Origin: Prevotella nigrescens
GTDB lineage: Bacteria > Bacteroidota > Bacteroidia > Bacteroidales > Bacteroidaceae
Reading direction: 5' to 3'
DNA length: 64,000 nt
NCBI RefSeq assembly: GCF_031191185.1
Contig: NZ_CP133465.1
Location: 1,980,001-2,044,000, forward strand
Position 1 is the stretch's first letter; each line of letters starts with the position of its first letter. Under the pieces are notes generated by a model, which ran no database searches, had not been told where the DNA came from, and worked only from the letters and a program-made list of their open reading frames with translations. The position numbers were made by a program, and so were the translations under genes. Below, piece by piece: positions 6,023-63,041 of the stretch.

Positions 6023-6109
6023 TTTCGATTTGACGTTGCGAAAACGTAGGTTTTGCGATGCAAAAGAGCCGCTTTTACCTTGCAAAACCCATGCTTTTGG
6101 AATGCAGAA
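6023..6109. repeat. 22-base tandem palindrome array (type E, copy 1)
   Basis: Four units, each ending in a TTTT..GCAAAA-type palindrome such as TTTTGCGATGCAAAA. Units end at 6044, 6065, 6087 and 6109, spacings of 21, 22 and 22. The array ends in a tail (TTTTATAACACACTGACAG) nearly shared with the copy at 40.6 kb. It fills much of the gap between rsgA and the GSCFA promoter. I see no gene in this 480-base gap. Confidence 0.75.
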
Positions 6110-6290
6110 CAATAGATTTTATAACACACTGACAGACAATTTGTTATGCGATAGATATGCTTACGAAAGATATTTACACCTTTATAATGACTTTTCGCCT
6201 ATACAATAAAGGTATATAGGAGAAGCTGGACGGTGGATAAAAGGGCTATTTCTTTTCAGAAAAGCAAGGCTATACAGTTCTCTTGATTGC

Positions 6291-7235
6291 CTAAAAAGCC
6301 TCTCGGTATTTGTTCTCATCTTTGTCGTCAAGCATAGACAAATAGCTGTTGTAGCGACTTTCGGCAATGTAATGCTCTTCCAAGGCTTTGAGAACGGCGC
6401 ACCCCGGTTCGTGTGTATGGGTACAATTACGAAATCGACAATCCTTTGAAAACTTAAATATCTCTCGGAAATAACTTGTGAGTTCTTCCTTGTCGATATC
6501 GAAAGTACCGAAACCCTTAATGCCCGGCGTATCTATGATGTACCCTCCGTAGGGCAATTGCAGCATTTCGCTGAAGGTTGTGGTATGCATTCCCGTGTTG
6601 TGTGAGTCGGAAATTTCAGCTGTACGCAAGTGAACTCCAGGTAACAAAGCGTTAATGATTGTAGATTTGCCAACGCCACTATTGCCACTCAGCAGCGTTA
6701 CCTTATCTTTTAGCAATGGTTCAAGCTGTTTTATACTTCTTTCTGTAGGTGCATCGTTGGTGGCTTGCAGTGTTACGCATTTGTAACCTATGCTTTCGTA
6801 CAAATGAATGGCGGCTTCTTGGTATCGCCTTTCATCTTCATCAAGCAAGTCGTATTTATTGAAGACCAAAACAACAGGAATGCGATAGGCTTCGGCACAA
6901 GCAAGAAAACGATCGATAAACGTAGTTGATGTTTCGGGATAGTTTACTGTTACAACGAGAAAAGCCTGGTCGAGGTTGGCTGCTATGATGTGGCTCTGCT
7001 TGGAAAGATTGGGCGATTTGCGTATAATATAGTTCTTTCGGTCTTCAATTTCGGAAATAAAGGCGGTACCTTCCTGATTGATGATGAGTTGTACATAGTC
7101 GCCCACAGCCACCGGATTGGTAGAACGAATGCCCTTTAAGCGGAAATTACCCTTTATCTTGCTTTCGATAGTTCGCCCATCATCGGTCTTTACGGTGTAC
7201 CAACTACCTGTATTCTTTATAACTAAGCCACGCAT
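6291..7235 (-). CDS. rsgA: Ribosome small subunit-dependent GTPase RsgA
   Basis: 314 residues. N-terminal OB fold (1-70), then a circularly permuted GTPase: NKYD (G4) at 126-129 comes before GNSGVGKS (G1) at 184-191 and DTPG (G3) at 235-238, which defines this family. The C-terminal zinc knuckle uses C266, C271, H273 or H275, and C279. RsgA binds the 30S subunit late in assembly and its GTPase helps proofread and release factors. It lies downstream of frr with a 56-base gap holding a strong hairpin. Confidence 0.96.
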
Positions 7236-7248
7236 TACTATACAATAA

Positions 7249-7284
7249 ACCCTTTACTTACCTTCAATGAGGTAAATAAAGGGT
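7249..7284 (-). terminator. Hairpin between frr and rsgA
   Basis: ACCCTTTACTTACC (7249-7262) pairs with the segment at 7271-7284 over 14 positions with one mismatch, loop of 8. It has only a weak T run on either side, so it may be a partial terminator or processing site that lowers rsgA expression. Confidence 0.55.
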
Positions 7285-7291
7285 AATGTTT

Positions 7292-7852
7292 TTATACTGT
7301 CATTATTTCTTTTTCCTTTTCGGCGAGAAGTGCATCTATGCGTTTGATGTATTTGTCGTGAATCTTCTGCAAGTCTGCCTCTGCGTCCTTTTCGAGGTCT
7401 TCAGACAATCCGTCCTTGATAGCCTTCTTCAATTTATCCTTAATATCCGCACGGGCGTTGCGCACTTCCACCTTTGTGCGTTCTCCAATCTTGTTGCTTT
7501 GCTTCACAAGGTCGCGGCGACGCTCTTCTGTTGGTTGGGGAAGATTGAGGCGTATGACCTCTCCGTTGTTCTCAGGAGTAATGCCAACGTCGGAGTCCAT
7601 GATGGCTTTTTCGATGTCTCGGATAGCTTTTTTATCCCAAGGTTTAATAGCAATGGTGCGTGGGTCGGGCACTGTTACCGATGCAACTTGGTTGAGCGGT
7701 ACCATTGAACCGTATGAACTGACTCGCACTCCGTCGAGAATTGCTACGTTGGCACGTCCTGCACGAATACGCTGCAACTGCTCGTCGAGATACATTGCAG
7801 CCATTTCCATACGTTCTTCGGCTTCGTTTAATGTTTCTTTAACATCTATCAT
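7292..7852 (-). CDS. frr: Ribosome recycling factor
   Basis: 186 residues, the normal length. It is helical and charged, with the family blocks RAGRANVAILD near the N-terminus, PEDRRR-like ERRRDLVKQ, and VRNARADIKDKLKK in the long helical arm. RRF works with EF-G to split the post-termination ribosome. It lies between the msrC and rsgA genes on the minus strand in a cluster of translation-related genes. Confidence 0.97.
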   Translation of the reverse strand: MIDVKETLNEAEERMEMAAMYLDEQLQRIRAGRANVAILDGVRVSSYGSMVPLNQVASVTVPDPRTIAIKPWDKKAIRDIEKAIMDSDVGITPENNGEVIRLNLPQPTEERRRDLVKQSNKIGERTKVEVRNARADIKDKLKKAIKDGLSEDLEKDAEADLQKIHDKYIKRIDALLAEKEKEIMTV

Positions 7853-7929
7853 AAGTATACGTAATTAATTGTTTTGAGATACAAATTTAGGGATTTATTC
7901 GTAATTGCGCAAAGTTTATCAACTTTTTT

Positions 7930-8406
7930 CTATTCGTCTGCGTAGATTTCAGCTGCCAAAATGCGCATTGCTTGCTCCAAATAATGAGCGTCCATATCGT
8001 CGAATGCATTCAGTTCTTTACTATCAATGTCGAGCACACCCACTGTTTCGCCTGCCCCATTGTATATTGGCACAACTATTTCGGAACGAGAAAGTGAGCT
8101 GCAAGCTATGTGTCCGGTGAACTTTTCTACGTCGGGAACAACAAGCGTCCGGCGTTCTGCAAATGCAGTTCCACAGACTCCTTTTCCCACAGGTATATTA
8201 AAACAAGCTGTAGTTCCTTGGAATGGACCTAACTGCAACGTGTCTTCTTTATTCAGAAGATAGAAACCCGTCCAGAAAAAAGTATCGAAAGTGTGGTGAA
8301 TGGCTGCTGCAACGTTTGCCAAGACGCCAACCGTGTTGTCTGCTTCGCCTTCTATGAGGGCGGCAATTTGCTTTAACAATAGTTCGTATGTTTCTTTTTT
8401 ATTCAT
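7930..8406 (-). CDS. msrC: Free methionine-R-sulfoxide reductase (GAF domain)
   Basis: 158 residues forming one GAF domain. It has the three cysteines of the fRMsr family: C68, C78 in GKGVCGTAF, and C102 in HIACSS. Their spacings (10 and 24) are those known for Escherichia coli fRMsr. The reaction is reduction of free Met-(R)-sulfoxide in the cytoplasm, recycled by thioredoxin. The block SEIVVPI and the end VLDIDS also match. It starts 15 bases after rsmA, suggesting co-transcription. Confidence 0.92.
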   Translation of the reverse strand: MNKKETYELLLKQIAALIEGEADNTVGVLANVAAAIHHTFDTFFWTGFYLLNKEDTLQLGPFQGTTACFNIPVGKGVCGTAFAERRTLVVPDVEKFTGHIACSSLSRSEIVVPIYNGAGETVGVLDIDSKELNAFDDMDAHYLEQAMRILAAEIYADE

Positions 8407-8421
8407 TGGTTCTTTACTTGT

Positions 8422-9222
8422 TTATGCGTTTATGGCTGCCATTTCGGCTTCTACCATATTGGTTAGTTCTACGAATTGTGCAATCGTCAGCTGTTCGGGG
8501 CGTTTTGTCATCACTTCCTGCTCGTAGAAACCTTCGCGCGGTTCGGCTGGGAACATCTGGCGCAGGCTGACGCGCAGCATCTTGCGGCGTTGGTTGAACA
8601 CCGTCTTTACCAAACGCTTGAAGAGTTTTTCGTTGCAGTCGAGCTTGCTGACACTGTTGCGTGTCATTCTGATAACGGCACTCTTTACCTTTGGAGGCGG
8701 ATTGAATACGTCTTCATCGACCGTAAACAAGTATTCCACATCGTACCACGCCTGGATTAATACCGACAGAATGCCATACGTCTTGTTGCCGGGTTGCGCT
8801 GCCATACGCAAGGCAACCTCGCGTTGTATCATACCCGTGCAACAAGGAATAAGGTCTTTGTAGTCGAGCATCTTGAAGAAAATCTGCGACGAAATATCGT
8901 AGGGATAGTTGCCAGTAAGCACGAATTGCCTGCCATCAAACACCTCTTCGAGGTGCATACGCAGGAAATCGGCACCCAAAATATTATTTTTTAGCGTAGG
9001 AAAATTCTCGTTAAGGTAGGCTACACTTTCCGCATCTATTTCCACAGCCTTTACTTCCCGGGGCTTTTCAACGAGGTATTGGGTGAGCACTCCCATGCCC
9101 GGTCCTATTTCTAAAATCGGTATATCGGGGCAAGCGTCCACAGTATCGGCAATGCGCTTCGCTATATTCAGGTCGGTTAAGAAATGTTGCCCAAGATTCT
9201 TTTTAGGCTTAACTGATTTCAT
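8422..9222 (-). CDS. rsmA: 16S rRNA adenine dimethyltransferase RsmA/KsgA
   Basis: 266 residues. KKNLGQHFL at the N-terminus, SAM-binding LEIGPGMGVLT (37-47) and the catalytic motif IV NYPY at 105-108 (usually NLPY; here Y replaces L). It dimethylates the two adjacent adenines near the 3' end of 16S rRNA and acts as a late 30S assembly checkpoint. A -7 box TATCTTTG at 9243-9250 on the minus strand lies 20 bases before the ATG, in a compact divergent promoter region shared with the next gene. Confidence 0.96.
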   Translation of the reverse strand: MKSVKPKKNLGQHFLTDLNIAKRIADTVDACPDIPILEIGPGMGVLTQYLVEKPREVKAVEIDAESVAYLNENFPTLKNNILGADFLRMHLEEVFDGRQFVLTGNYPYDISSQIFFKMLDYKDLIPCCTGMIQREVALRMAAQPGNKTYGILSVLIQAWYDVEYLFTVDEDVFNPPPKVKSAVIRMTRNSVSKLDCNEKLFKRLVKTVFNQRRKMLRVSLRQMFPAEPREGFYEQEVMTKRPEQLTIAQFVELTNMVEAEMAAINA

Positions 9223-9242
9223 AAATTTTCTTTATTTGGCGA

Positions 9243-15693: not shown

Positions 15694-16269
15694 TCAACAT
15701 CTTATTTTCTGCGACAATGAAAGCTGTTTCGTGGTTACATAGTGTGTCGGCATACGGTAGGTTCCTTCAACAAAGTATTGACGGAAAGGCTTTACGCGCA
15801 CACCCATATCTACTTCCATACCATTTACCTTGTAAGGCTTTATGGTAATGATGTGTGGGCGTGTGTCGTTCGGAGCTTCGAACGAGATAAAGCCCACACC
15901 GTCTTCCATCGACTGTCCCGGAGCGAGCTGAATATCGTTGCGTGTCTTGTACTTGACATTTGTTCGGTCGTTGTCGAACCAATATTCAAATTCCACCGTA
16001 TTGATGGTAGTGTTCGACTGATTGTCCATATAGAACACATAAAAGATAGGTGCGTAGGGTTCTCCCACCTTCTGTGGGAAATAGTTTGCTCCATAGAAAT
16101 CGTCAAACTCCAACCCTTTCAGTTCCGGAGGTAAATTTCCCATGGGTGCTTTTTGTTGGTTCAATCGTAGCCTCTTGTACGTATTTTCCTGTGTTTGAGC
16201 CTTGGCAGGCATAGATAGGAATAATGCAGCAAGCAAGAAACCGATTACATGTAAATGCTTTTTCTCCAT
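15694..16269 (-). pseudogene. Truncated copy of the leucine-rich-repeat surface protein
   Basis: 191 residues. The first 177 match the start of the 985-residue protein at 32166 with only about two differences (QTQE for QTLE, YKRL for YKKL). Identity stops abruptly after MPTHYV and a short unrelated tail, TTKQLSLSQKIRC, leads to a stop. The signal peptide (to about residue 25) is intact, so it could still encode a small secreted protein, but the leucine-rich repeats and C-terminal tail are gone. It is the coding part of the left inverted copy. It may be a dead remnant or a donor for recombination. Confidence 0.85.
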
Positions 16270-16552
16270 ATTTCCAATAGATTATAGTTATTAAATAGGG
16301 GAGTAACTATTTTGTCAAGGTAAGGCAGCCGACTCCCTTTCACTGCCTTCTGTATAGGTTCTTAAGTGTAATCAACACTGATGTAATAGTATTGCAAATA
16401 TAATTATTATTTCTCACAAACGGAAATATACACTGAAATTATCGTATAAAGAGTATATATTCGATTTTAAGGTAACGTGAGTTCGATGAAATAAAGACGA
16501 TATGGCTTCAGCAATATTCCTCTTCCGAATAAGTCCTGAAATCGTAACTCCG

Positions 16553-16710
16553 TTACGGCAATCGTCGCTACGGGGTTACGGCAATCGTCGCTACGGGGTT
16601 ACGACAATCGTCGCTACGGAGTTACGACAATCGTCGCTACGGGGTTACGACAATCGTCGCTACGGAGTTACGCCAATCGTCGCTACGGGGTTACGATAAT
16701 CGTCGCAACG
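16553..16710. repeat. 23-base tandem array, left copy (7 units)
   Basis: Seven contiguous units starting at 16553, each containing TTACGRCAATCGTCGCTACG plus GGG or GAG; the last unit is shorter. The unit is a quasi-palindrome. There are no spacers, so it is not a CRISPR array. The right copy has six units. Confidence 0.9.
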
Positions 16711-16890
16711 AAACAGATAAATACAGATGCTCCCAAACACCGTGAATAGCGGTATTCTGATGATTGAAGAACGATGAATTCGTGCATTGGCAATTCGCTG
16801 AACTTACGATAGAGTATAACCTTATTTTCGAAAGACAAAGCGTCTCTTTCGAAATGGAAATCTGTCTGAACTCTTGGGGGGTAAACTAAA

Positions 16891-16925
16891 ATTTCCGGAA
16901 CTCGGACAAGCCGAATCCCGGAAAT
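16891..16925 (-). terminator. Terminator of the fimbrillin-like operon (also in the right copy)
   Basis: ATTTCCGGGATTCGG and CCGAGTTCCGGAAAT form a long stem around CTTGT, followed on the minus strand by TTTAG. The same hairpin ends the right copy at 31532-31566. Confidence 0.65.
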
Positions 16926-16959
16926 AATTTCTGTGTTGTTATATATAGTCTGTTTTCTC

Positions 16960-23531: not shown

Positions 23532-23641
23532 AAACCTTATAAACTATTAAGAAAAAGCTTATAAGTTATTTATGAAAAGCTTATAAACTATCAGTAAAAA
23601 GCTTATAAGCTATCAATAAAAAGCTTATAAGCTTTGTGAAC
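23532..23641. repeat. 22-base tandem palindrome array upstream of the TonB receptor (5 units)
   Basis: Five contiguous 22-base units. Most contain AAAGCTTATAA; where complete, AAGCTTATAAGCTT is a perfect 14-base palindrome. The first unit is degenerate (CCTTATAA). It ends about 60 bases before the promoter of the receptor gene. The rest of the 600-base gap (23249-23531) shows no gene. Confidence 0.88.
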
Positions 23642-23817: not shown

Positions 23818-26172
23818 ATGGAACAACTGCGCATAAAAGCTCTGAATGTAGTAAGGCTAATCATGTTTATTATAGTGCTGGCTATGTTGCCAACAGTAGT
23901 AAATGCAAACGAAGAACTAAAAACAAATGCAAACGTAGTGGGACACATAACTGACAAAGCCACTGGCGAGCCAATACCGCACGTGGCAGTGCAGGTGCTG
24001 GGTACGATGATAGTCAGCGTTACCAATGCCGAGGGGTATTACCATCTGGAAGACTTGCCGCTTGGCAAGCAAACAATAGAGGCTCGTGCCACGGGATACC
24101 ACGCTGAAAGGCAGATGGTTGAAGTGGAGAAGAACGCAAGGCTGACAACAGATTTTGTATTGAAGACTGATGAAATATCGTTGGACGAAGTTGTAGTATC
24201 GTCAAATCGCAGCATATCGTTGCGACGCAACGCACCAACGTTGGTGAACGTGATAGATACGCGCACGTTCAACATCACCAATTCCATGTGTCTGGCACAA
24301 GGTCTGAACTTTCAGCCCGGTGTGCGCACCGAAGACAATTGCGCCAACTGTGGCTTCTCGCAAGTGCGTATAAACGGGTTGGACGGGCATTATTCGCAGA
24401 TACTTATCGATTCTCGTCCCGTGTTTTCAGCCTTGCAGGGCGTTTACGGCTTGGAGCAGATACCTGCCAATATGATAGAGCGGGTAGAAGTAGTGCGAGG
24501 TGGAGGCTCGGCATTGTATGGCTCGTCGGCAATAGGTGGAACCATCAACATCATTACGAAAGAACCACTGAGCAATTACGCTGAGTTGGCGCATACGTTC
24601 ACGGCTTACGAAGGAGGAAAGACATTCGATAACAACACCACTGTAAACACTTCCATTGTGTCGAGCAACAATAAAGCAGGCTTCTCGGTTTATGGGCAGA
24701 GCCATAATCGTGGCGGTTACGACAGAGACCAAGACGGCTTTACCGACCTTCCAAAGCTAATCAACAAAACCATTGGTATGGGTGCTTTCCTACGATTGAA
24801 CAACTATTCCAAGCTGAAACTGCAATACCACGCTTTGAACGAATATCGTCGTGGTGGCAACAACCTGCACCTGCCTGTACACGAATCGAATATTGCAGAA
24901 AAACTCGACCATAATATCAATGGCGGTTCGCTGAGTTACGACCTCTTCACTCCTAACGGATTGAACCATCTTACGGCTTATGCTTCGTTTCAAACCGTAT
25001 CGCGCGATAGCTATTATGGTGGTGCGGGCGACGGTTCGGAAGAAAGCAAGGCAGAGGCTTTGAAGGCTTACAGCAAGACCCACGACACGAACTTAATGGG
25101 AGGTATGCAGTTTGTTCACAACTTCGGACGTTTGCTTTTTATGCCTGCCGACCTTACTTTGGGTGCTGAATATACCTACGATGCACTGAAAGACCACGCA
25201 CTCGGCTACGATGTCATTACCCGACAAACCGTGCGGACTGGTAGCTTGTTCCTTCAAAACGAATGGAAGAACGAACATTGGGGCATACTCTTGGGTGGTC
25301 GTTTCGACAAGCACAATCTCATCAACCACCTTATTTTCAGTCCGCGAGTGAATCTGCGCTTCAATGCAACTCGCAATGTTCATTTGCGTTTAACCTATGC
25401 AGGCGGATTCCGTGCACCACAGACATTCGACGAAGACTTGCATACGAGTATGGCAGGCGGCGAGCGAATAAAGACCTATTTGGCGAAAGACTTGAAGGAA
25501 GAACGCTCTAACAGTTTGAGCCTCTCAGCCGATATGTACTATAACTTTGGCAATGTGCAGACCAACTTCTTGGTGGAAGCCTTCTATACACACCTGAACA
25601 ATGTGTTTGCACAGCGTGTATTGAAGGAACGCGACGAAAATGGCATTCGCATTCTCGAACGTTTCAATGCCCATCAGGCAACAGTCTGGGGTATGAATGC
25701 AGAGGGAAAGGCAGTGTTCTCTAAGTGGTTCTCTTTGCAAAGCGGCCTCACAGTGCAGCGCAGCGAATACAAGGACGCTGTGGAATGGGACGAAGATGCG
25801 CCTGCCGAAAAGAAGTTTTTGCGTACACCGAACGTATATGGCTACTTCACGATGCAGTCATCGCCCATTAAGCGTTTGTCCATTGCCCTTTCAGGCAACT
25901 ATAATGGACGTATGCTCGTAGGGCACGCAGCAGGTTCAGGCGTAGAAAAGCCTGTGGCGGTGCGCACGCCATCGTTCTTCACATTGAGTTTAAAGGCAAG
26001 TTACGACTTCGATATTTACAAACAAGTAAAGGTGCAGTTCAATGCGGGCATACAAAATATAGGCAATGTTTACCAGCGCGATTTAGACAAAGGCTGGAAC
26101 CGCGACGCTTCCTATATCTATGGTCCGTCGCTCCCACGCTGTTTCTATGTAGGGTTGAAACTGATGTACTAG
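23818..26172 (+). CDS. TonB-dependent outer-membrane receptor
   Basis: 784 residues. A signal peptide (cleavage near residue 31) is followed by a carboxypeptidase-regulatory-like domain (about 40-120), a plug domain (about 130-250) with NCANCGFSQVRINGLDG and IERVEVVRGGGSALYG, and a 22-strand-type beta-barrel to the C-terminal PRCFYVGLKLMY. The plug cysteine pair and the ILIDSRPVFSALQG stretch recall haem/haemin-type receptors such as HmuR of Porphyromonas, so haem, siderophore or cobalamin uptake is possible; the ligand is not shown. No SusD partner follows. The gene is preceded by the 22-base array. Confidence 0.9.
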   Translation: MEQLRIKALNVVRLIMFIIVLAMLPTVVNANEELKTNANVVGHITDKATGEPIPHVAVQVLGTMIVSVTNAEGYYHLEDLPLGKQTIEARATGYHAERQMVEVEKNARLTTDFVLKTDEISLDEVVVSSNRSISLRRNAPTLVNVIDTRTFNITNSMCLAQGLNFQPGVRTEDNCANCGFSQVRINGLDGHYSQILIDSRPVFSALQGVYGLEQIPANMIERVEVVRGGGSALYGSSAIGGTINIITKEPLSNYAELAHTFTAYEGGKTFDNNTTVNTSIVSSNNKAGFSVYGQSHNRGGYDRDQDGFTDLPKLINKTIGMGAFLRLNNYSKLKLQYHALNEYRRGGNNLHLPVHESNIAEKLDHNINGGSLSYDLFTPNGLNHLTAYASFQTVSRDSYYGGAGDGSEESKAEALKAYSKTHDTNLMGGMQFVHNFGRLLFMPADLTLGAEYTYDALKDHALGYDVITRQTVRTGSLFLQNEWKNEHWGILLGGRFDKHNLINHLIFSPRVNLRFNATRNVHLRLTYAGGFRAPQTFDEDLHTSMAGGERIKTYLAKDLKEERSNSLSLSADMYYNFGNVQTNFLVEAFYTHLNNVFAQRVLKERDENGIRILERFNAHQATVWGMNAEGKAVFSKWFSLQSGLTVQRSEYKDAVEWDEDAPAEKKFLRTPNVYGYFTMQSSPIKRLSIALSGNYNGRMLVGHAAGSGVEKPVAVRTPSFFTLSLKASYDFDIYKQVKVQFNAGIQNIGNVYQRDLDKGWNRDASYIYGPSLPRCFYVGLKLMY

Positions 26173-28376: not shown

Positions 28377-28802
28377 ATGGCAATAAGTATCAGACTACAA
28401 CAAAGTAAGTTTAAAGAAGCCAATCGTGGAGGTAAATGGCACGCACGGGTTGTAAGCAACGGAGAGACATCGACAGCCGACCTTGCAGCAGCTATTCAGG
28501 CTAATACATCGTTCACACGCGGAGAAGTTACGGGCATTATTATGGCATTAGTCGATGAAATTAGTTATAATCTAAGTCTTGGCAACACCGTTGTACTCGA
28601 CGGATTAGGACGATTTCATCTGACAGTAGAGAGCGATCCTGTTATAAATAAAGAAGACTTCGACATTAAAAAGAATGTAAAAGGAGTGAAATGTAAATTC
28701 TTGCCAGCAAGTCGCCGAGACCCTAAGACTCGGAAAAGCACACAAGACTTCGCATCAGGCGTACAAGTGGTGTGGGCTGACCCTGAAGATGAGGAAGAAT
28801 AA
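28377..28802 (+). CDS. HU-family DNA-binding protein
   Basis: 141 residues. One HU/IHF-like fold (about 10-120) with TSFTRGEVTGIIMALVDEIS and VLDGLGRFHL as the recognisable blocks, then an acidic tail ADPEDEEE. Such HU-related proteins are abundant in Bacteroidota, often several per genome, and bind or bend DNA. Unlike the two at 51 and 58 kb it has no winged-helix C-terminus. It has its own promoter. Confidence 0.85.
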   Translation: MAISIRLQQSKFKEANRGGKWHARVVSNGETSTADLAAAIQANTSFTRGEVTGIIMALVDEISYNLSLGNTVVLDGLGRFHLTVESDPVINKEDFDIKKNVKGVKCKFLPASRRDPKTRKSTQDFASGVQVVWADPEDEEE

Positions 28803-31321: not shown

Positions 31322-31531
31322 GTATATAGTAAGTAACAAGAACAAAATATACTGATGGATTGACAAGAAAAAGTGATTTGATGCGCATTACCAACTATTT
31401 AATGCAAATTGATATCTAAGGAACAACACCTTCATTTCTGTATCGTATTAACATAAGAATAAACTATGGGGTATTTAATTCTCTAAATATTCAAGATAGA
31501 AGTGCAATGTTTACTCTATAGTTGACTCTAT

Positions 31532-32699
31532 ATTTCCGGAATTCGGCTTGTCCGAGTTCCGGAAATTTTAGTTTACCCCCCCAAGAGTTCAGACAGATTT
31601 CCATTTCGAAGGAGACGCTTTGTCTTTCGAAAATAAGGTTATACTTTAACGTAAGTTCAGCGAATTGCCAATGCACGACTTCATCGTTCTTCAATCATCA
31701 GAATACCGCTATTCACGGTGTTTGGGAGCATCTGTATTTATCTGTTTCGTAGCGACGATTGTCGTAACCCCGTAGCGACGATTGCCGTAACCCCGTAGCG
31801 ACGATTGCCGTAACTCCGTAGCGACGATTGCCGTAACTCCGAAGCGACGATTGCCGTAACCCCGTAGCGACAATTGGCGCAACGGAGTTACGACTTCAGG
31901 ACTTATTCGGAAGAGGAATATTGCTGAAGCCATATCGTCTTTATTTCATCGAACTCACGTTACCTTAAAACCGAATATGTACTCTTTATACGATAATTTC
32001 AGTGTATATTTCCGTTTGTGAGAAATAATAATTATATTTGCAATACTATTACATCAGTGTTGATTACACTTAAGAACCTATACAGAAGGCAGTGAAAGGG
32101 AGTCGGCTGCCTTACCTTAACAAAATAGTTACTCCCCTATTTAATAACTATAATCTATTGGAAATATGGAGAAAAAGCATTTACATGTAATCGGTTTCTT
32201 GCTTGCGGCATTATTCCTGTCTATGCCTGCCAAGGCTCAAACACTGGAAAATACGTACAAGAAGCTACGATTGAACCAACAAAAAGCACCCATGGGAAAT
32301 TTACCTCCGGAACTGAAAGGGTTGGAGTTTGACGATTTCTATGGAGCAAACTATTTCCCACAGAAGGTGGGAGAACCCTACGCACCTATCTTTTATGTGT
32401 TCTATATGGACAATCAGTCGAACACTACCATCAATACGGTGGAATTTGAATATTGGTTCGACAACGACCGAACAAATGTCAAGTACAAGACACGCAACGA
32501 TATTCAGCTCGCTCCGGGACAGTCGATGGAAGACGGTGTGGGCTTTATCTCGTTCGAAGCTCCGAACGACACACGCCCACACATCATTACCATAAAGCCT
32601 TACAAGGTAAATGGTATGGAAGTAGATATGGGTGTGCGCGTAAAACCTTTCCGTCAATACTTTGTTGAAGGAACCTACCGCATGCCGACACACTATGTA
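31532..32699 (+). repeat. Inverted duplication, right copy
   Basis: About 1168 bases, the inverted partner of 15736-16925. It begins with the ATTTCCGGAA hairpin (31532-31566), holds the 23-base array, the -7 box TATATTTG at 32033-32040, a leader of about 120 bases and the first 177 codons of the full-length gene. The spacer between the two copies is about 14.6 kb. Confidence 0.9.
31748..31885. repeat. 23-base tandem array, right copy (6 units)
   Basis: Six contiguous units with starts exactly 23 bases apart, containing CGTAGCGACGATTGCCGTAA. One unit fewer than the left copy, which accounts for the length difference. Confidence 0.9.
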
Positions 32700-35366: not shown

Positions 35367-35454
35367 GCGACTATTTTACGGTGTAAAAGCGGCTGTTTTA
35401 CGTCGTAAAAGCGTAGGTTTTGCGTTGCAAAAGAGCCGCTATTGCAACACAAAA
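35367..35454. repeat. 22-base tandem palindrome array (type E, copy 2)
   Basis: Four units ending at 35388, 35410, 35432 and 35454, exactly 22 bases apart. Units contain TTTTACGTCGTAAAA or TTTTGCGTTGCAAAA; GTAGGTTTTGCG and the following AAAAGAGCCGC match copy 1. It lies between the convergent LRR and CvfB genes. No gene is seen in the 390-base gap. Confidence 0.82.
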
Positions 35455-37070: not shown

Positions 37071-37074
37071 AATT

Positions 37075-40556: not shown

Positions 40557-40644
40557 GCTACATTTCCGTTATGTAAAAGAGCCTGTTTTGCGATGCGAAA
40601 CAGGCTCTTTTATGCGGCAAAACAGTGGGTTTTATAATGTACTG
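40557..40644. repeat. 22-base tandem palindrome array (type E, copy 3)
   Basis: Units end at 40578, 40600, 40622 and 40644. Two successive units give a 15-bp perfect stem, with TAAAAGAGCCTGTTT (40574-40588) pairing to 40598-40612, so as RNA it could terminate or stabilise transcripts. Its tail TTTTATAATGTACTGACAG nearly equals that of copy 1. It lies between the convergent asd and FMN-binding genes. Confidence 0.8.
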
Positions 40645-40790
40645 ACAGTAACCTCATTACATAAGGAAATATTGATTAATGGGGAAAATCAGCTATTTGT
40701 ATATTCTTTATGCCTCAACAACGAACGTTTTAACAGATAAGAAAAAGAAGAGGCAGCAAACTTATCGTCTATAATATTGTACATAAAGAG

Positions 40791-51251: not shown

Positions 51252-51860
51252 TTATTCTTGCTTGTCTGCCCGCACATACGCTTTGCGATAGCGTGTGCCT
51301 ATGTTGCGCAGCCTGCCTCCTTCACACAACTGCTTAGTAATACGGTATGCAGTAGACTGTGAAAGGTTCAGTCTGTCGCGCAAATCATCTACCGTCATAT
51401 ATGGCTTTTCGGCAAGGAGAGCCTCAATAGCACTGTCTATTTCTTTCTCTGTTGGCATAGAGGGGCTACGAAACCTATAGGTTGCATTCTCGAACTCTGT
51501 ATAACGGAGTATATCCATCATCTCTGTATCGGGTCGGAAGTTCACCGTGCGTACCTCGGCATTGTGCAGCCTGACGTGGTTGTTTCGTGGGTCTTCGTAT
51601 ATGTCTCCCTTCACAGCAAGCGAGAAATAGCCTATGCCGGGCAGGTGTACACTGCAGCCGGACATAAGCTGAAAGGCTATTTCGTCGCGCAAAGCTGCAA
51701 TGGTTGCTATGACGTCGGCACGTGTAAGCGCCGTCGCTCCCTGAATGTTCTGCGCAATACGCTCCACGCCAACTGTTTTGTGTTCCACTGTTACTGCCCT
51801 GTACGCTGTTTTCTCTCCCGACTTCATGCGGTTCTTTATTAGCTTGTAATTAACGCTCAT
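51252..51860 (-). CDS. HU-family protein with C-terminal winged helix (copy 1)
   Basis: 202 residues. HU/IHF-like fold (about 1-125; ALTRADVIATIAALRDEIAFQ, HLPGIGYFSLAVKG) followed by a winged-helix domain (about 140-200; MTVDDLRDRLNLSQSTAYRITKQ). It is about 65% identical to the copy at 58.2 kb. The two-domain form suggests a sequence-specific rather than a purely architectural binder. The leader between its promoter (52086-52117) and its start is filled with 22-base arrays, so autoregulation is likely. It lies convergent to the envelope operon. Confidence 0.85.
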   Translation of the reverse strand: MSVNYKLIKNRMKSGEKTAYRAVTVEHKTVGVERIAQNIQGATALTRADVIATIAALRDEIAFQLMSGCSVHLPGIGYFSLAVKGDIYEDPRNNHVRLHNAEVRTVNFRPDTEMMDILRYTEFENATYRFRSPSMPTEKEIDSAIEALLAEKPYMTVDDLRDRLNLSQSTAYRITKQLCEGGRLRNIGTRYRKAYVRADKQE

Positions 51861-51899: not shown

Positions 51900-51988
51900 C
51901 AGATGCCCTTTAAGACACCGACAAATGCCTGTCTAAGCATTGACAGATGCCTATCTAAACGTATTTAGATGCCCATTCCGTCAATTTA
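51900..51988. repeat. 22-base tandem array in the HU copy 1 leader (second array)
   Basis: Four units with starts at 51901, 51923, 51945 and 51967, exactly 22 bases apart. The plus-strand core is AGATGCC; one unit carries the palindrome ATCTAAACGTATTTAGAT. Confidence 0.82.
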
Positions 51989-51997: not shown

Positions 51998-52085
51998 TGA
52001 GAAATATTTACCATAATTATGATAAATTATTATCGCAGCCATGATAAATATTTCTCATAGCTTTGATAATCCTACGGATTAGGCA
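51998..52085. repeat. 22-base tandem array in the HU copy 1 leader (first array)
   Basis: Units start at 51998, 52020, 52042 and 52064, exactly 22 bases apart, with TGATAAATATT-type palindromes such as TGATAAATTATTATCG. It begins right after the predicted transcription start. The array of HU copy 2 matches it in sequence, number and position. Confidence 0.88.
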
Positions 52086-53966: not shown

Positions 53967-54806
53967 ATGCTCGACACAGAAAACATAATCATCGAACCGG
54001 AAAACGATAAGAACAGTATTCTTCGTACCGAAGGACTCGTGAAGCGGTACGGCAAACGCACCGTTGCCAACGGCGTAAGCATAAACGTGCGGCAAGGAGA
54101 GATTGTTGGCTTGTTAGGTCCGAACGGTGCAGGAAAGACAACATCGTTCTATATGACTACGGGGTTGGTGGTTCCGAATGAAGGACACGTCTACATCAAC
54201 GACTTGGAAATAACAAAATACCCCGTGTACAAACGCGCCCAGGCTGGCATTGGATATTTGCCACAAGAGGCGAGCGTATTCCGGAAGATGAGCGTCGAAG
54301 ACAATATTATGTGCGTTCTGGAGATGACGAAGCTTAATAAACAGCAGCGCATAGAAAAGATGGAAAGCCTTATCAAGGAGTTCCGCTTGGAGAAAGTACG
54401 CAAAAATCTTGGCGACCGCCTTTCGGGAGGCGAACGGCGCAGATGCGAAATAGCACGCTGCCTGGCGATAGACCCTAAGTTCATCATGCTCGACGAGCCT
54501 TTTGCAGGTGTAGACCCTATTGCGGTGGAAGACATTCAGCACATTGTCTGGCGACTGAAGTTCCGCAACATCGGCATTCTGATTACCGACCACAACGTGC
54601 ACGAAACACTGAACATTACCGACCGTGCCTATCTGCTCTTTGAAGGACAGATACTCTTTAAAGGTACGCCCGAAGAACTGGCAGCCAACAAGATTGTGAA
54701 AGAAAAGTATCTGGGTACCGACTTCGTTCTGCAAAAGAAAGACTTCCAATTGTTAGACGAGCGCAAACGTGCCAAAGAAGCCGAAGAAGAACGAAACAGA
54801 GAATAA
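53967..54806 (+). CDS. lptB: Lipopolysaccharide export ATPase LptB
   Basis: 279 residues. Walker [10 protein letters not shown], signature [15 protein letters not shown], Walker [14 protein letters not shown], and [13 protein letters not shown], which is characteristic of LptB. A 25-residue Lys/Glu-rich C-terminus extends beyond the usual length. LptB powers LptF/LptG in extracting LPS from the inner membrane; a likely partner gene starts at the left edge of this window. It is transcribed away from mlaE-mlaF, another envelope lipid transporter. Confidence 0.95.
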
Positions 54807-54902: not shown

Positions 54903-56600
54903 ATGGCAACAGTAGACGACAAGAAGATTATCTTCTCAATGGTGGGAGTTTCAAAGATTATCCCACAAAATCAAAAACAAATTCTGAAGAACATTTACCT
55001 CTCGTTCTTCTATGGTGCCAAGATAGGTATCATCGGTTTGAACGGTGCCGGTAAGTCCACGTTAATGAAGATTATTGCGGGCATTGAGCAACCAACATCT
55101 GGCGAAGTGGTGTTCAGCCCTGGCTATTCCGTAGGTTATCTGCCGCAGGACCCACCACTGAACGAAGAGAAAAACGTTAAGGAAAACGTACAAGAAGGCG
55201 TGCAGCACGTTTACGATGCACTCCGCGAATACGACGAAATCAATGCGAAGTTCGGTTTGGAAGAATATTATGGCGACCCCGACAAGATGGACAAGCTGAT
55301 GCAACGCCAAGCCGAAGTGCAGGATATTATAGATTCTACCGATGCTTGGAACATGGACTCGAAGCTCGAACGTGCTATGGCAGCCTTGCGTTGCCCTGCC
55401 GGCGACCTTCCTGTAACGCACCTTTCGGGTGGTGAGCGTCGCCGTGTGGCACTCTGCCGCCTATTGTTGCAAAAGCCCGACGTGTTGTTGCTCGACGAGC
55501 CTACCAACCACTTGGACGCTGAAAGCATCGACTGGTTGGAGCAGCATCTGCAACAATACGAAGGTACGGTCATTGCAGTTACCCACGACCGCTACTTCCT
55601 CGACGATGTTAGCGAATGGATTCTTGAACTCGACCGTGGCGAAGGCATTCCTTGGAAAGGCAACTACTCTTCGTGGCTCGACCAGAAGACAAAACGTATG
55701 GAGCAGGAAGAAAAGACAGCTTCCAAGCGCAGAAAGACGCTCGAACGCGAATTGGAATGGGTTCGCCTTGCGCCAAAGGCACGTCAGGCAAAGGGTAAGG
55801 CTCGTTTGAACTCGTACGAGCAAATGCTCAGCCAAGAGCAGAAAGAACGCGAAGAGAAACTCGAAATCTTCATTCCGAACGGTCCTCGCTTGGGCAACAA
55901 GGTTATCGAGGCACAGCACGTGCAGAAGGCATTCGGCGAGAAAGTTCTTTTCAGCGACCTCAACTTTATGCTTCCCCCTAACGGAATCGTGGGCGTGATA
56001 GGTCCGAACGGCGCAGGTAAAACCACACTCTTCCGCCTTATCATGGGCTTGGAAACGCCCGACAACGGCAGTTTCGAGGTGGGCGAAACCGTAAAACTCG
56101 CTTATGTAGACCAGCAACACAAGGACATAGACCCCAACAAGTCGGTTTACGATGTCATCGCACAAGGCAACGAAAACATAAAAATGGGCGGACGCGACGT
56201 CAATGCGCGTGCCTACATCTCACGTTTCAACTTCTCTGGAACCGACCAAAGCAAACTCTGTGGAGTTCTTTCAGGTGGTGAGCGCAACCGCTTGCAGCTG
56301 GCTTTGGCATTGAAACAGGAAGGAAACGTACTCTTGCTCGACGAACCTACCAACGACATCGACGTGAACACCCTACGCGCATTGGAAGAAGGTTTGGAAA
56401 ACTTTGCAGGTTGCGCCGTTGTAATCAGCCACGACCGTTGGTTCTTAGACCGCATCTGTACGCACATTCTTGCTTTCGAAGGCAATGGCGAAGTATTCTT
56501 CTTCGAGGGCACCTACTCTGAATACGAAATAAACAAGGCACGCCGCCTTGGCAACGAAGAAATTAAGAAAGGCCGCTATCGCAAGCTGATGGAAGACTAA
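54903..56600 (+). CDS. ettA: Energy-dependent translational throttle protein EttA
   Basis: 565 residues, an ABC-F protein with two ATPase domains (about 10-270 and 330-560). Each has Walker A (GLNGAGKST and GPNGAGKTT), a signature ([13 protein letters not shown] and LSGGERNRLQLAL) and LLLDEPTN. The first-domain insertion (arm) and the linker length fit EttA, which binds the ribosomal E site and couples initiation to the ATP/ADP ratio. No membrane helices. It follows lptB by 96 bases with no clear promoter. Confidence 0.95.
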   Translation: MATVDDKKIIFSMVGVSKIIPQNQKQILKNIYLSFFYGAKIGIIGLNGAGKSTLMKIIAGIEQPTSGEVVFSPGYSVGYLPQDPPLNEEKNVKENVQEGVQHVYDALREYDEINAKFGLEEYYGDPDKMDKLMQRQAEVQDIIDSTDAWNMDSKLERAMAALRCPAGDLPVTHLSGGERRRVALCRLLLQKPDVLLLDEPTNHLDAESIDWLEQHLQQYEGTVIAVTHDRYFLDDVSEWILELDRGEGIPWKGNYSSWLDQKTKRMEQEEKTASKRRKTLERELEWVRLAPKARQAKGKARLNSYEQMLSQEQKEREEKLEIFIPNGPRLGNKVIEAQHVQKAFGEKVLFSDLNFMLPPNGIVGVIGPNGAGKTTLFRLIMGLETPDNGSFEVGETVKLAYVDQQHKDIDPNKSVYDVIAQGNENIKMGGRDVNARAYISRFNFSGTDQSKLCGVLSGGERNRLQLALALKQEGNVLLLDEPTNDIDVNTLRALEEGLENFAGCAVVISHDRWFLDRICTHILAFEGNGEVFFFEGTYSEYEINKARRLGNEEIKKGRYRKLMED

Positions 56601-58003: not shown

Positions 58004-58095
58004 ATTATCAAAGCTCTGAGAAGTTTTTATCAGAACTGTGATAATAATTTATCTAAGCTTTGATAAGTATTTCTAAAAGCTTAGATAATTTAACG
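58004..58095. repeat. 22-base tandem array in the HU copy 2 leader (first array)
   Basis: Units start at 58017, 58039, 58061 and 58083, exactly 22 bases apart. TGATAATAATTTATCT is a near-perfect 16-base palindrome. The array corresponds unit by unit to that of HU copy 1. Confidence 0.88.
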
Positions 58096-58101
58096 GAATG
58101 C

Positions 58102-58155
58102 GTATATAATTATGATTTTGTAGGTATCTAAATATGACGTTATACGTATCTAAAC
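58102..58155. repeat. 22-base tandem array in the HU copy 2 leader (second array)
   Basis: Units start at 58102, 58124 and 58146, 22 bases apart, with GTATCTAAA as the core; the first is degenerate. The core ATCTAAA also occurs in the second array of HU copy 1 (reverse strand). Confidence 0.78.
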
Positions 58156-58192: not shown

Positions 58193-58801
58193 ATGAGTGT
58201 AAATTACAAACTTATAAAGAATCACAGCAAGTCGGCGGAAAAGGCTGAATACAGGGCTGTAACCGTAGAGAACCAAATGGTGGGACTGGAGCGTATAGGA
58301 CAGAATATACAAGAAGCAACCACACTTACACGAGCTGACGTTATCGGAACGATTGCTGCTTTAAAAGACGAGATTGCCGACCAACTGATGTCTGGCAACG
58401 GCGTACACCTGCCTGGAATTGGCTACTTCTCGCTCGCCGTGAAGGGCAACGTGTACGAAGACCCGCGCACGCACCGCCATCGGCTGCGGAACGCCGAGGT
58501 TCGCACGGTGAGGTTCCGCCCCGACATTGAAATGTTGGACACCCTTCAGCACACCAAGTTTGAAAACGTTACTTATCGGCACGGCACCTCTTCCGTGCCA
58601 ACGGCAGAACTCACAGACAAGGCTCTCGACGATTTATTCTCCGCTAAACCTTTCATCACGGTTGCCGACCTACGCGATTACCTCAACCTTTCCTCTGCCA
58701 ATGCCTACCGTATTGCTGCCCGACTGGAAGCGGAAGGCAAACTCCGCGATGTCGGTTCACGCTACCGCAAGGCGTATGTGCGAGGAGAAAGCCAAGGGTA
58801 A
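58193..58801 (+). CDS. HU-family protein with C-terminal winged helix (copy 2)
   Basis: 202 residues, same two-domain build as copy 1 (HU-like part with TTLTRADVIGTIAALKDEI and HLPGIGYFSLAVKG, then a winged helix with ITVADLRDYLNLSSANAYR). The two differ most in the linker and recognition helix, so their binding specificities could differ. It is preceded by the same two-array leader. It lies 5 kb from the RHS region and 0.4 kb from the ompA-like gene. A duplicate by descent, probably old. Confidence 0.85.
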   Translation: MSVNYKLIKNHSKSAEKAEYRAVTVENQMVGLERIGQNIQEATTLTRADVIGTIAALKDEIADQLMSGNGVHLPGIGYFSLAVKGNVYEDPRTHRHRLRNAEVRTVRFRPDIEMLDTLQHTKFENVTYRHGTSSVPTAELTDKALDDLFSAKPFITVADLRDYLNLSSANAYRIAARLEAEGKLRDVGSRYRKAYVRGESQG

Positions 58802-60472: not shown

Positions 60473-60502
60473 CAAAATTAAACATAATTTTTTAATAAAC
60501 AA
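60473..60502 (-). promoter_or_regulatory. Promoter of the ompA-like gene
   Basis: Minus-strand TTG (60500-60502) and TAATTTTG (60473-60480), 19 bases apart. Confidence 0.65.
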
Positions 60503-60884
60503 CATTAAAACAGAGAAAAATGCTGTTTTATGAAATATTTTTAGCGAATATAGCTTTTTAACTTGATATAGAAAAACAGTTGTATACTCGTTGTCTCAAA
60601 AGTATAAAGGGAGAAAAGTTTTGTAATTACAAAAAAATAATTTGTAATTACAGAATAAAAAACTATAATTAAATTTTTGCCGGGTTTTAATAACAACTTT
60701 TTCTGGTATGGTTGGAAGTAAGGAAAAACTCGGAATAGAGGAACAACCATGAAGATTGTATCCATAGAAAAACTCCGAAAATGGTGAGAGTAACAAAAGT
60801 TGAACTCACCAATTATTCAAAGTCTTATTGTCTTTGAACTGTTTTAATTTATCCACACTTCATACACAATACTTAAACATAATG
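60503..60884. other. Intergenic region with no gene seen
   Basis: AT-rich stretch; short open frames on the minus strand have no recognisable sequence or start signal. Confidence 0.55.
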
Positions 60885-61301
60885 CTATCCGCCATGATGA
60901 TTAAGATAATCGGCTATTAAAAGCATAATAACGTCTACTATGAAAATACTATAGTTAAATATCTTGGCATTTTTCATCTTTCGCTTCATGGCAGGAGTAT
61001 CTATTTGCTTCTCATACTCGGTAAAGATTTTAAGGTATCTGTCTTTCCGAAAAAATACAAGATACTCAAATAAAAGAGAAATAATTACATAAAAATACAC
61101 GAAAGACTTATTGATAATATTTTGAATCTCAAGTAATTTACAAAGGAAGTGTGCAACCCCCAATATTAATCCACTGAAGAAAGTTAAGTTCAAGCAACAT
61201 GCATAGAGTAAGCAAATGTCCCGGTCTTCAGTACTTCGCTTTCTATAAAACCGATACACTACGTAGTGTATCATAAAATAAAAGTCTATCATTTGTTCCA
61301 A
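60885..61301 (-). CDS. Immunity-like membrane protein, copy 2
   Basis: 138 residues, with four probable membrane helices. Its first 24 and last 50 residues are almost identical to those of copy 1 (MEQMIDFYFMIHYVVYRF; KIFTEYEKQIDTP), while about residues 40-75 have changed. Its start overlaps, by 13 bases, a short relic of a toxin 3' end, just as copy 1 does with the intact toxin gene. Small multi-helix proteins next to RHS C-terminal toxins are typical immunity candidates. The partner toxin is missing. Confidence 0.65.
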   Translation of the reverse strand: MEQMIDFYFMIHYVVYRFYRKRSTEDRDICLLYACCLNLTFFSGLILGVAHFLCKLLEIQNIINKSFVYFYVIISLLFEYLVFFRKDRYLKIFTEYEKQIDTPAMKRKMKNAKIFNYSIFIVDVIMLLIADYLNHHGG

Positions 61302-61346
61302 AAATCCATATCAAATTCTTCCATTCCATATCTTCCTAAGAAATAT
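61289..61346 (-). pseudogene. 3' relic of an RHS toxin gene
   Basis: About 19 codons ending in YFLGRYGMEEFDMDFWNK and a stop, nearly the same as the end of the intact toxin (YFLGKYGLEEFDMDFWNK). The sequence upstream is unrelated. It is a scar showing that a toxin body once preceded immunity copy 2. Confidence 0.85.
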
Positions 61347-61372
61347 CTACGCACAGTATAGTAAAAGAAGGC

Positions 61373-61412
61373 AATAATATAACGTGAATTCAACGAAATC
61401 ACGTTATATTAT
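61373..61412 (-). terminator. Terminator between the immunity copies
   Basis: AATATAACGTGA and TCACGTTATATT pair perfectly over 12 bp, extended by AT pairs. Confidence 0.7.
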
Positions 61413-61426
61413 ATTTAAACATAATG

Positions 61427-61843
61427 CTATCCGCCATGATGATTAAGATAATCAAGTATAAACAGCAGAATAACGTCTAAAATAAAAATACTATAGTTAA
61501 ATATCTTGGCATTTTTCATCTTTCGCTTCATTACAGGAGTATCTATTTGCTTCTCATACTCGGTAAAGATTTTAAGGTATCTGTCTTTCCGAAAGAATAC
61601 AAGATACTCAAATATAAGAGAAATAATTGCATAAGACCAAATAAAAGGCTTATTAATAATTGATTGATATCCAAGTAATATGTCTAATAACCATTCGCCC
61701 AGAATCATTAATGATCCTGAAAGAAGTATGTTCAAGCTACAGGCATAGAATAAGCAAGTGTCTCTATCGTAAGTGCTTCGCTTTCTATAAAACCGATACA
61801 CTACGTAGTGTATCATAAAATAAAAGTCTATCATTTGTTCCAA
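61427..61843 (-). CDS. Immunity-like membrane protein, copy 1
   Basis: 138 residues, about four membrane helices (residues 5-20, 40-58, 62-85 and 112-130). It overlaps the stop of the RHS toxin by 13 bases, the standard arrangement for a cognate immunity gene. It differs from copy 2 mainly at about 40-75, the part that could face a membrane-acting toxin. No family name is recognised; the role is inferred from position. Confidence 0.7.
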   Translation of the reverse strand: MEQMIDFYFMIHYVVYRFYRKRSTYDRDTCLFYACSLNILLSGSLMILGEWLLDILLGYQSIINKPFIWSYAIISLIFEYLVFFRKDRYLKIFTEYEKQIDTPVMKRKMKNAKIFNYSIFILDVILLFILDYLNHHGG

Positions 61844-62961
61844 AAATCCATATCAAATTCTTCCAAGCCATATTTTCCTAAGAAATATGCACCTGACACA
61901 ACCCAACCATAAGGAGGAATATAACCAGCACCTGTCATTATCAAGTCTAAACCGCCCTCGCCTATAAAGTTTTTCTTCTTTGCTCTAATTTCTTTTAAAG
62001 TCATAAAAGCTGAAATAAACCCAGAAGCTATACTCACTCTATTTGCAGTTTTTGCAATACGACTAATAACTTTAGGATTAAATTCAAAAGAAATATTATT
62101 GAACTTTACCGATGGTTTTATAGAACTCAGATATCGTCCTGTGTTATCATAAAAAATATAAGCTGTACTTCTTTTTAATGCTTTTCCAAAATTAAATTCT
62201 ATCAGTGAAGCACCTGTACCAAGCTCTGAATTAAAATTACTAATAGAGCTCCATTCCTTTGTTTCTACTAATCTTTCAGAAAAACGTCTCTCTAATGTTC
62301 CACCTGATTTATATCCTTTGCCATCTTCTCCAAACGAAACATACCATTCTTTCTTATCATATGCATAATGTACATTTTTAAAACGAACGTTATTTCTTTG
62401 TGCATAGTTCCATGCAGCCAACTTTGTTGGGAACATTCCATAAAAATCTACTCGGTTTACAGGATTATTGCCACCATAAGCATAAGGACTAACGCTATAA
62501 TATTCCTCTGCCAAAGGATCTATTCTATCCCACGAAGGAAGAACTGGACTATATTGCCGTGCCCCATAATCGTAAGTATTTAAACCATGCATTCTATCAA
62601 ATTCTTTTCCATTATATTTGTAAGGTTGTAATGAGGCCTTCAGACAGCTAAGAGAATCGCAAAAAGAAGAACCAAAGGGATAATAATTAGTAACTTGTAT
62701 GATACGTCCTAAATTATCAACAACTTCTCTATTATTTCCTAAATGGTCTTGATTGTAAAAATAGGGTTCGAAAGTGCTAATGTTATTTAATGTGCTATGC
62801 ATGTCATCTTTCATATTCATATTTGTTGTAACATTTCTATCTGCTGTTCCTAATCCTTCCTTTATTCTATGCCCAATATTACCAAAATAGTATGCTTGTG
62901 CATAGCCTCCATGAAATAAATATTTGTCAATTCGTCCATTTTTTAAAAGATGAGACGTCAT
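61831..62961 (-). CDS. Orphan RHS C-terminal toxin module
   Basis: 376 residues. The first 165 are the end of an RHS core, with YDYGARQYSP, WDRIDPLAEEYY, SPYAYGGNNPVN and FYGMFPTKL. The rest (about 175-376) is a variable C-terminal domain whose last 70 residues are hydrophobic and Gly-rich (GGLDLIMTGAGYIPPYGW). Such ends occur in polymorphic toxins thought to act on membranes, but no active site is recognised. It has no signal peptide or N-terminal RHS repeats, so it is an orphan cassette that needs recombination with a full RHS gene to be exported. The start ATG sits in the last unit of a 22-base array. Confidence 0.8.
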   Translation of the reverse strand: MTSHLLKNGRIDKYLFHGGYAQAYYFGNIGHRIKEGLGTADRNVTTNMNMKDDMHSTLNNISTFEPYFYNQDHLGNNREVVDNLGRIIQVTNYYPFGSSFCDSLSCLKASLQPYKYNGKEFDRMHGLNTYDYGARQYSPVLPSWDRIDPLAEEYYSVSPYAYGGNNPVNRVDFYGMFPTKLAAWNYAQRNNVRFKNVHYAYDKKEWYVSFGEDGKGYKSGGTLERRFSERLVETKEWSSISNFNSELGTGASLIEFNFGKALKRSTAYIFYDNTGRYLSSIKPSVKFNNISFEFNPKVISRIAKTANRVSIASGFISAFMTLKEIRAKKKNFIGEGGLDLIMTGAGYIPPYGWVVSGAYFLGKYGLEEFDMDFWNK

Positions 62962-63041
62962 ATTTATCAGAATTAGACGTCATTTCCGTCAGATTGAGAC
63001 GTCATATTTTAGAGTGTATGACATCATATTTTGAATCTTAA
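62952..63041. repeat. 22-base tandem array upstream of the orphan RHS module
   Basis: Four units with GACGTCAT at 62954, 62976, 62998 and 63020 (last variant GACATCAT), exactly 22 bases apart. The GACGTC core is palindromic. It lies between the immunity-like gene and the RHS start, and includes the ATG of the latter. Confidence 0.88.

Follow-up and report, generated by a model that had tools for sequence, protein, structure and literature searches.

A 64,000-nucleotide stretch of the Prevotella nigrescens genome (contig NZ_CP133465.1, positions 1,980,001 to 2,044,000; hereafter the window, or G000:C2:1980001-2044000, where G000 is the 2.68-Mb genome itself) carries rows of short palindromes that repeat every 22 bp, some of them upstream of genes encoding HU-like proteins of the HU-HIG family. 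Based on the sequence comparisons described here, we propose that the arrays linked to HU-HIG genes are very probably operators of HU-HIG proteins, that is, undescribed self-regulating DNA switches. Each HU-HIG regulator type would recognise its own palindrome and would bind it in rows of roughly 3 to 14 copies set at 22-bp intervals, or at 23 or 21 bp in certain subfamilies. Such rows would lie close to the regulator's own promoter, where they would serve autoregulation, and at a few loci elsewhere. HU proteins are dimers, and two half-sites per 22 bp, or two helical turns, would bring a dimer to the same DNA face every two turns, with all dimers of a row aligned.

Arrays with a 22-bp period in the window

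An earlier note on this DNA had placed nine arrays in the window, with a period of 22 bp and a single step of 21, and direct reading of the sequence bore this out. The HU-HIG gene at 51252–51860 (minus strand) is preceded by a promoter-proximal ATCTAAA..TTTAGAT array of four units at 51900–51985 (minus strand; TGCC words at 51904, 51926, 51948 and 51970) and by a second, distal TGATAA-N4-TTATCA array, also of four units, at 51998–52073 (minus strand; TGAGAA or TGATAA words at 51998, 52020, 52042 and 52064). Before the HU-HIG gene at 58193–58801 (plus strand) lie four units of a TGATAA/TTATCA array at 58004–58089 (plus strand; TTATC words at 58005, 58027 and 58049) and about 2.5 units of an ATCTAAA-type array at 58101–58154 (plus strand; TATCTAAA at 58125 and 58147). 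Five units of AAGCTTATAAGCTT at 23532–23633 (plus strand; CTTATAA words at 23536, 23558, 23580, 23602 and 23624) represent the candidate operator type of the HU-HIG gene G000:C2:1133725, and four units of TGACGTCAT at 62950–63030 (no strand assigned; GACRTCAT at 62954, 62976, 62998 and 63020) that of the HU-HIG gene G000:C2:1450490; the latter array overlaps the start of the minus-strand open reading frame 61831–62961, which carries an RHS core domain. Every step between these words is 22 bp, and the arrays themselves have a period of 22.

The remaining three arrays, none with an assigned strand, are of the TTTTGCNNNGCAAAA type (below, the TTTTGC type). The array at 6029–6131 has period 22, with TTTT words at 6051, 6073, 6095 and 6117 in steps of 22, and AAAA words at 6041, 6062 and 6084 that include the single step of 21. 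Both others are located between convergent genes, at 35374–35454 (period 22; TTTT(A/G)C at 35374, 35396 and 35418) and at 40575–40650 (TTTT(G/A) at 40586, 40608 and 40630), again with every step equal to 22. The earlier note gave three to five palindromic units per array; the array listed at 58102 has only two clear units, and in the one listed at 40557 the period-22 words are present but one long palindrome dominates. A CRISPR (clustered regularly interspaced short palindromic repeats) array was rejected, as the units are contiguous 22-bp palindromes with short linkers, not repeats with unique spacers.

The earlier note had also raised the concern that other periods might be just as common as 22. 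Within 400 kb sampled from the genome (20 even stretches; 140 matches within masked bases dropped), the tandem matches at periods 12–40 comprised 14 at 22, seven at 23 and one each at 21 and 18, so that period 22 was clearly commoner than any other and 22 and 23 together made up 21 of the 23 unmasked matches. Three rounds of 3-base-block shuffling yielded 14 matches in total at scattered periods, with none at 22 and one at 23. When the window was scanned for three dyads in a row, period 22 gave four matches (three arrays) and each other period from 10 to 44 gave 0 or 1. A second dyad 11 bp off in a period-22 array is a matter of arithmetic and hence no separate evidence. In 464 kb of sequence, TTTTGC-type units were spaced by 22 in 32 pairs and by 44 in 20, with spacings of 21, 42, 46 and 49 found once each and none of 20, 23 or 24, while a reversed control pattern gave two pairs at 22 and one each at 36, 44 and 47.

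Arrays precede many HU-HIG genes across Bacteroidales

The HU-HIG family was reportedly described by Burroughs et al. in 2017, and to our knowledge neither a DNA target nor a regulon has been described for its members. By profile and predicted fold, the window proteins belong to PF18291, to which NCBIfam TIGR01201 (HU_rel) is a related family. The window pair, two putative regulators of 202 amino acids with an HU domain and a winged helix, matched PF18291 with E-values of 5.5e-27 (94.7 bits; 51252–51860, which also matched PF13412 HTH_24 at 1.5e-5) and 2.9e-28 (98.9 bits; 58193–58801). The third HU-HIG gene of the window (28377–28802, plus strand, 141 amino acids) gave 4.4e-21 (75.7 bits), and the HU-HIG protein of locus L069 gave 61.3 bits; all four tested proteins exceed the curated cut-off of 26.2 bits. 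The C-terminal winged helix-turn-helix, immunoglobulin or glycine-rich part of HU-HIG proteins was found in the window pair only. An AlphaFold model of 58193–58801 (mean predicted local distance difference test score, pLDDT, 86.8; predicted template-modelling score, pTM, 0.58) shows an HU-like core and C-terminal helices with a wing, and that of L069 (mean pLDDT 83.1) merely a short tail after the HU part. Both models matched HU/IHF folds and 4FMR in Foldseek, and the nearest solved structure to the L069 model is this PDB entry, 4FMR (BVU_2165 of Bacteroides vulgatus). Several Bacteroidales genomes carry many HU-HIG paralogues; P. nigrescens has 17 PF18291 places, of which the last three look like ordinary HU genes.

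Comparing array positions with gene positions, as the earlier note had advised, revealed that arrays concentrate upstream of HU-HIG genes. Nine of the 14 HU-HIG genes of P. nigrescens have an upstream array, seven by a scan for periods of 21–23 bp and two (L062 and L063, 22 bp) by eye. Across 131 HU-HIG upstream regions, 49 contained a 21–23 bp array as compared to 22 of 334 other genes (Fisher p 4.7e-15), the control genes all being taken from P. nigrescens, where 7/14 HU-HIG genes pass the same scan. For the genus together with genome G034, a set built from 60 HU-HIG genes of relatives and the 14 of P. nigrescens, an array was found in 37 of 73 usable upstream regions (period 22 in 23 regions, 23 in six, 21 in two, 24 in two, namely L062 and L063, and others in four), and the downstream control gave 10 of 72, one of them with period 22. 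These 60 genes and 40 further ones were hand-picked by rank among the top matches listed, and nearly all had a match starting near the protein start. Among 58 upstream regions taken from 18 genomes that belong to other genera or families, there were 17 real matches, 15 at period 22 and one each at 23 and 21.

A further comparison used 78 named HU-HIG loci of one subfamily, from Prevotella, Hoylesella, Segatella, Hallella, Alloprevotella, Porphyromonas, Phocaeicola, Bacteroides and unclassified relatives. At a threshold of at least 30 of 44 positions, 41 of the 78 upstream regions had an array, counting loci among the matches listed in one scan that include near-identical and hence not independent ones. 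Period 22 was the best of 29 periods in 41 of 41, and it also ranked first in 21 of the 37 loci that fell short of the threshold. Downstream, 3 of 76 regions had an array, and dinucleotide shuffles gave none in 1560.

Array type tends to follow regulator type

The palindromes at HU-HIG genes of P. nigrescens are ATACCCTYGTKAGGGTAT (L062 and L063), AGCTTATAAGCT, ATATGACRTCATAT, AAGTATATACTT, TACTTAAATTTAAGTA, TGATAA..TTATCA (the window pair) and the 23-bp GTTACGGCAATCGTCGCTWCGGG. Several of these types recur in the window and beyond it: AGCTTATAAGCT is the type of the array at 23532, TGACRTCAT that of the array at 62952 and GTTACGGCAATCGTCGCTWCGGG that of two 23-bp arrays at 16552 and 31748, with TGACRTCAT arrays at five loci of the genome and TGATAA arrays at six. 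Palindromy was significant (permutation <0.05) for 21 of 32 arrays in one set and 29 of 41 at the named loci. Core columns were more conserved than linkers (0.87 versus 0.78, p 1.7e-5), a comparison biased toward conserved columns in the core, since the core was chosen by the best dyad.

Array similarity, assessed by the crude measures of 8-mer and 7-mer sharing, correlated with protein similarity (Mantel r 0.59; 0 of 2000 permutations as high). Regulators of one type tend to have arrays of one type, though not in every case. Two array types are present at each of the winged-helix genes 51252, 58193 and L061, of which the promoter-proximal, ATCTAAA-like one is similar in all three and the distal one of L061 differs; it is possible that one array serves each protein domain.

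These comparisons bear on whether HU-HIG proteins are themselves the binders. If unrelated transcription factors bound the arrays and regulated the HU-HIG genes, it would be hard to explain why, from one species to another, the type of array tends to go with the HU-HIG protein, or why period 22 recurs with different palindromes at HU-HIG genes of many genera. Such outside factors would fit some close paralogues with unlike arrays. They would also fit L124 and L153, which are 28% identical and yet have a common array type in one genome; cross-regulation among HU-HIG paralogues explains this pair equally. We consider outside factors decidedly unlikely.

Arrays shared by a regulator, a TonB receptor and MATE exporters

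Further support for HU-HIG operators comes from the AGCTTATAAGCT arrays. A pattern search located them at three loci of P. nigrescens: before the HU-HIG gene G000:C2:1133725, before a TonB-dependent receptor gene in the window (23818–26172, plus strand), the likely target of the 23532 array, and before a gene for a MATE-family exporter (PF01554). P. pallens, whose regulator is 91% identical, has AGCTTATAAGCT arrays at six loci, one of them a row of 14 units before a second MATE gene. Each of the three P. nigrescens loci is matched in P. pallens by an array that again precedes the same gene (identities: HU-HIG 91%, TonB receptor 88%, MATE 98%), and between the two species the linkers differ and most cores are identical. 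No AGCTTATAAGCT array was found in P. ihumii, P. koreensis, P. aurantiaca or G017, although more distant relatives of the regulator are present there. Taken together, the upstream enrichment, the match of types and these conserved pairs support the suspicion voiced in the earlier note that HU-winged-helix proteins act on the arrays.

Promoter geometry and proposed mechanism

Promoters were searched for with TTG-N17-21-TAnnTTTG, which we take to be the Bacteroidetes promoter motif, and a match was found for 19 of the 49 HU-HIG arrays. Six arrays begin 10–21 bp past the match, and four of these six belong to the winged-helix clade that includes the window genes. A further nine end 28–62 bp before the match, three overlap it and one begins 63 bp past it. 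The window array at 51998–52073 begins 14 bp past its match. At the TonB gene, 88 bp separate the end of the match from the ATG, and the array lies upstream of the match at a gap of about 65 bp; the MATE genes have no match to this motif. As to the sign of control by HU-HIG proteins, arrays past the match suggest repression and arrays ending before it suggest activation or promoter wrapping.

It is highly improbable that the arrays act as RNA, in the form of hairpins in leaders or terminators. Palindromes do form hairpins, and the six arrays past a promoter match would be transcribed. Nevertheless, the TonB and HU-HIG examples with the array upstream of the match do not require transcription, an RNA element offers no reason for a 22-bp period, and a comparison of the window with Rfam matched three transfer RNAs and none of the arrays.

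For the operators proposed here, we infer that the HU-HIG protein itself would bind, cooperatively and with a filament. The earlier note had likened the arrays to cooperative sites of a dimeric filament-forming protein; the units do look like dimer sites on one DNA face, and binding, cooperativity and filament belong to the inferred part of that picture. BldC, which multimerises cooperatively on direct repeats, is similar to this working model (PMC5859096). As far as the available portion of that report goes, it differs in belonging to another protein family, whereas here the units are palindromic and many paralogues have units of their own (PMC5859096).

Dispersed repeats

The TTTTGC type behaves differently from the HU-HIG-linked types. 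At no more than three mismatches, pair matches in P. nigrescens numbered 249 forward and 234 reverse (controls 0 and 1); at no more than two, there were 158 in this genome and 670 in G017, and the type was present in nine of 39 relatives, every one a member of the same genus and two of them contributing one match each. Several of the 7-base linkers occur repeatedly, in either orientation. No TTTTGC-type array was seen at an HU-HIG gene's own upstream region among those inspected, which cover part of the HU-HIG genes. According to a crude gene calling, the 17 arrays in 464 kb comprised eight between tandem genes, four between convergent and none between divergent genes, with five in open reading frames or short gaps; 12 of the 17 were in gaps longer than 100 bp, against a background of 103 tandem, 40 divergent and 35 convergent gaps of that size.

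The TTTTGC arrays (6023, 35367 and 40557) form a genus-specific dispersed repeat and are probably the published PINSR, a 188-bp intergenic repeat with 177–184 copies and without known function, limited as a high-copy repeat to the P. intermedia/nigrescens group (PMC4755523). The two agree in high copy number and may agree in intergenic position and species group; in contrast, the part of that publication at hand reports no 22-bp palindromic period (PMC4755523). It describes a PINSR copy downstream of tnaA in strain ATCC 25611 (PMC4755523). In our genome, which is from a different strain than the paper's, L294, some 1.4 kb beyond the stop codon of the best PF01212 gene (the tnaA candidate), contained no TTTTGC-type unit. 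As this type, three of the nine arrays, is not tied to an HU-HIG gene and is probably PINSR, the nine arrays need not be one system.

Arrays of 23 bp had been reported within an inverted duplication of the window, and they are present there. The array at 16552–16710 (plus strand, GTTACGACAATCGTCGCTACGGG), of the type found upstream of the HU-HIG gene G000:C2:1735279, and its inverted copy at 31748–31883 (minus strand) both lie within a 1.19-kb duplication (15736–16926 and 31531–32699, 95.9% identical). By a strict pattern, this type occurs at at least 14 loci of the genome. BrickBuilt, a minisatellite-MITE (miniature inverted-repeat transposable element) of Porphyromonas gingivalis, likewise consists of 23-nt tandem units (PMC4596501, PMC5771137). 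Its unit, AGAYCATARTATCCTCTCRTRTG, is unlike the GTTACGACAATCGTCGCTACGGG of the window, for which reason we rejected it as an explanation of the arrays, and the accessible text on it mentions no link to HU-HIG.

Given these repeats, we considered that all arrays might be minisatellites or mobile elements spread by slippage or transposition and devoid of a regulatory role, with the TTTTGC type being PINSR and the 23-bp type resembling BrickBuilt. The copy numbers of the TTTTGC type, the publication of PINSR as a repeat of no known function (PMC4755523, as far as its text was available), the 23-bp loci with two copies in one inverted duplication, and the absence of TTTTGC-type arrays between divergent genes are all in line with this. 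However, HU-HIG-linked arrays stand upstream of one gene family and rarely downstream, different palindromes share one period with linkers varying more than cores, and the same three genes have arrays in two species. Fresh slippage copies would instead show conserved linkers and free periods. A purely mobile or slippage origin is therefore unlikely for the arrays at HU-HIG genes.

Evidence weighing against HU-HIG operators

Several observations count against HU-HIG proteins as the binders of these operators. Of the 131 HU-HIG upstream regions, 82 pass no 21–23 bp scan (the arrays of L062 and L063 were seen by eye), and in the 18 more distant genomes 7 of 57 downstream regions had a match, five at period 22. 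Within 440 bp upstream, window gene 28377 has no array, though its close relative L153 (G017) has one, and neither has the G017 relative of 58193. A clade of six loci (L059, L126, L129, L132, L137 and L145) has no palindromic array, with AT-rich repeats in two members. Significant palindromy was lacking for 11/32 and 12/41 arrays, and 30 of the 49 arrays have no promoter match nearby. The Mantel correlation drops to r 0.25 without pairs at least 90% identical; L240 and L241, with HU domains 91% identical, have unlike arrays, and those of L214 and L215 share little. Gene order around the three loci is otherwise conserved in P. pallens, and common descent by itself could account for the arrays there. 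In addition, several dispersed arrays lie between convergent genes, and a sequence search of solved structures returned no relative.

The six-locus clade lacks palindromic arrays and, as judged by eye, follows a conserved peptidase-like open frame, the longest upstream frame in L129, L132, L137 and L145, which suggests a different role for it.

Novelty and wider meaning

HU-HIG is an established protein family, with 4FMR as a solved structural relative; the proposed operators would be the new part. A search of mostly open-access literature, with the founding paper of HU-HIG outside its scope, found no report of 22-bp operator arrays of HU-like proteins. In P. gingivalis, histone-like genes with changed expression or HaeR binding have been described, with no arrays mentioned in the portion of the article available (PMC3764172).

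With these operators, a widespread HU-like family would gain candidates for its DNA target and its regulon, together with a direct way to test them. If true, an HU fold has been turned into a sequence-specific regulator. Because such operators can be read from sequence alone, it would be possible to chart the regulons of numerous paralogues of a species together, receptors and exporters of oral and gut Bacteroidales among them. A broader scheme, which we offer tentatively and hold to be somewhat doubtful, is that Bacteroidales possess a large class of regulators in which HU-fold proteins, as a rule nucleoid proteins without sequence specificity, have become sequence-specific and orthogonal, each polymerising on palindrome rows of its own that keep in phase with the helix (every 22 bp, or 21 or 23 depending on the subfamily), with dispersed rows like those of the TTTTGC type as chromosome-wide loading sites and with transcription control and nucleoid architecture forming one system.

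Further observations

In the window, the two HU-winged-helix genes diverge around a block (52.1–58.0 kb) with homologues of LptB (53967–54806) and EttA (54903–56600). Several differences between the winged-helix parts of L240 and L241 may point to what determines specificity. A 23-bp HU-HIG-type array at G000:C2:1264228-1264382 lies ahead of a Beta_elim_lyase gene that we take to encode tryptophanase; from the end of the array it is about 500 bp to the matched part of this gene and about 240 bp to its open frame. In PADLOC, the winged helix of one HU-HIG protein weakly matched SoFic and PsyrT, and in PHROGs four of five HU-HIG proteins weakly matched phrog_379 ('DNA binding protein'); two further PADLOC or PHROGs matches were also weak. 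A pattern search of viral contigs returned four stretches. Finally, a weak AT-rich 21-bp repeat, TAATTACAAAAA, lies at 60607–60671 and is possibly unrelated to the arrays.

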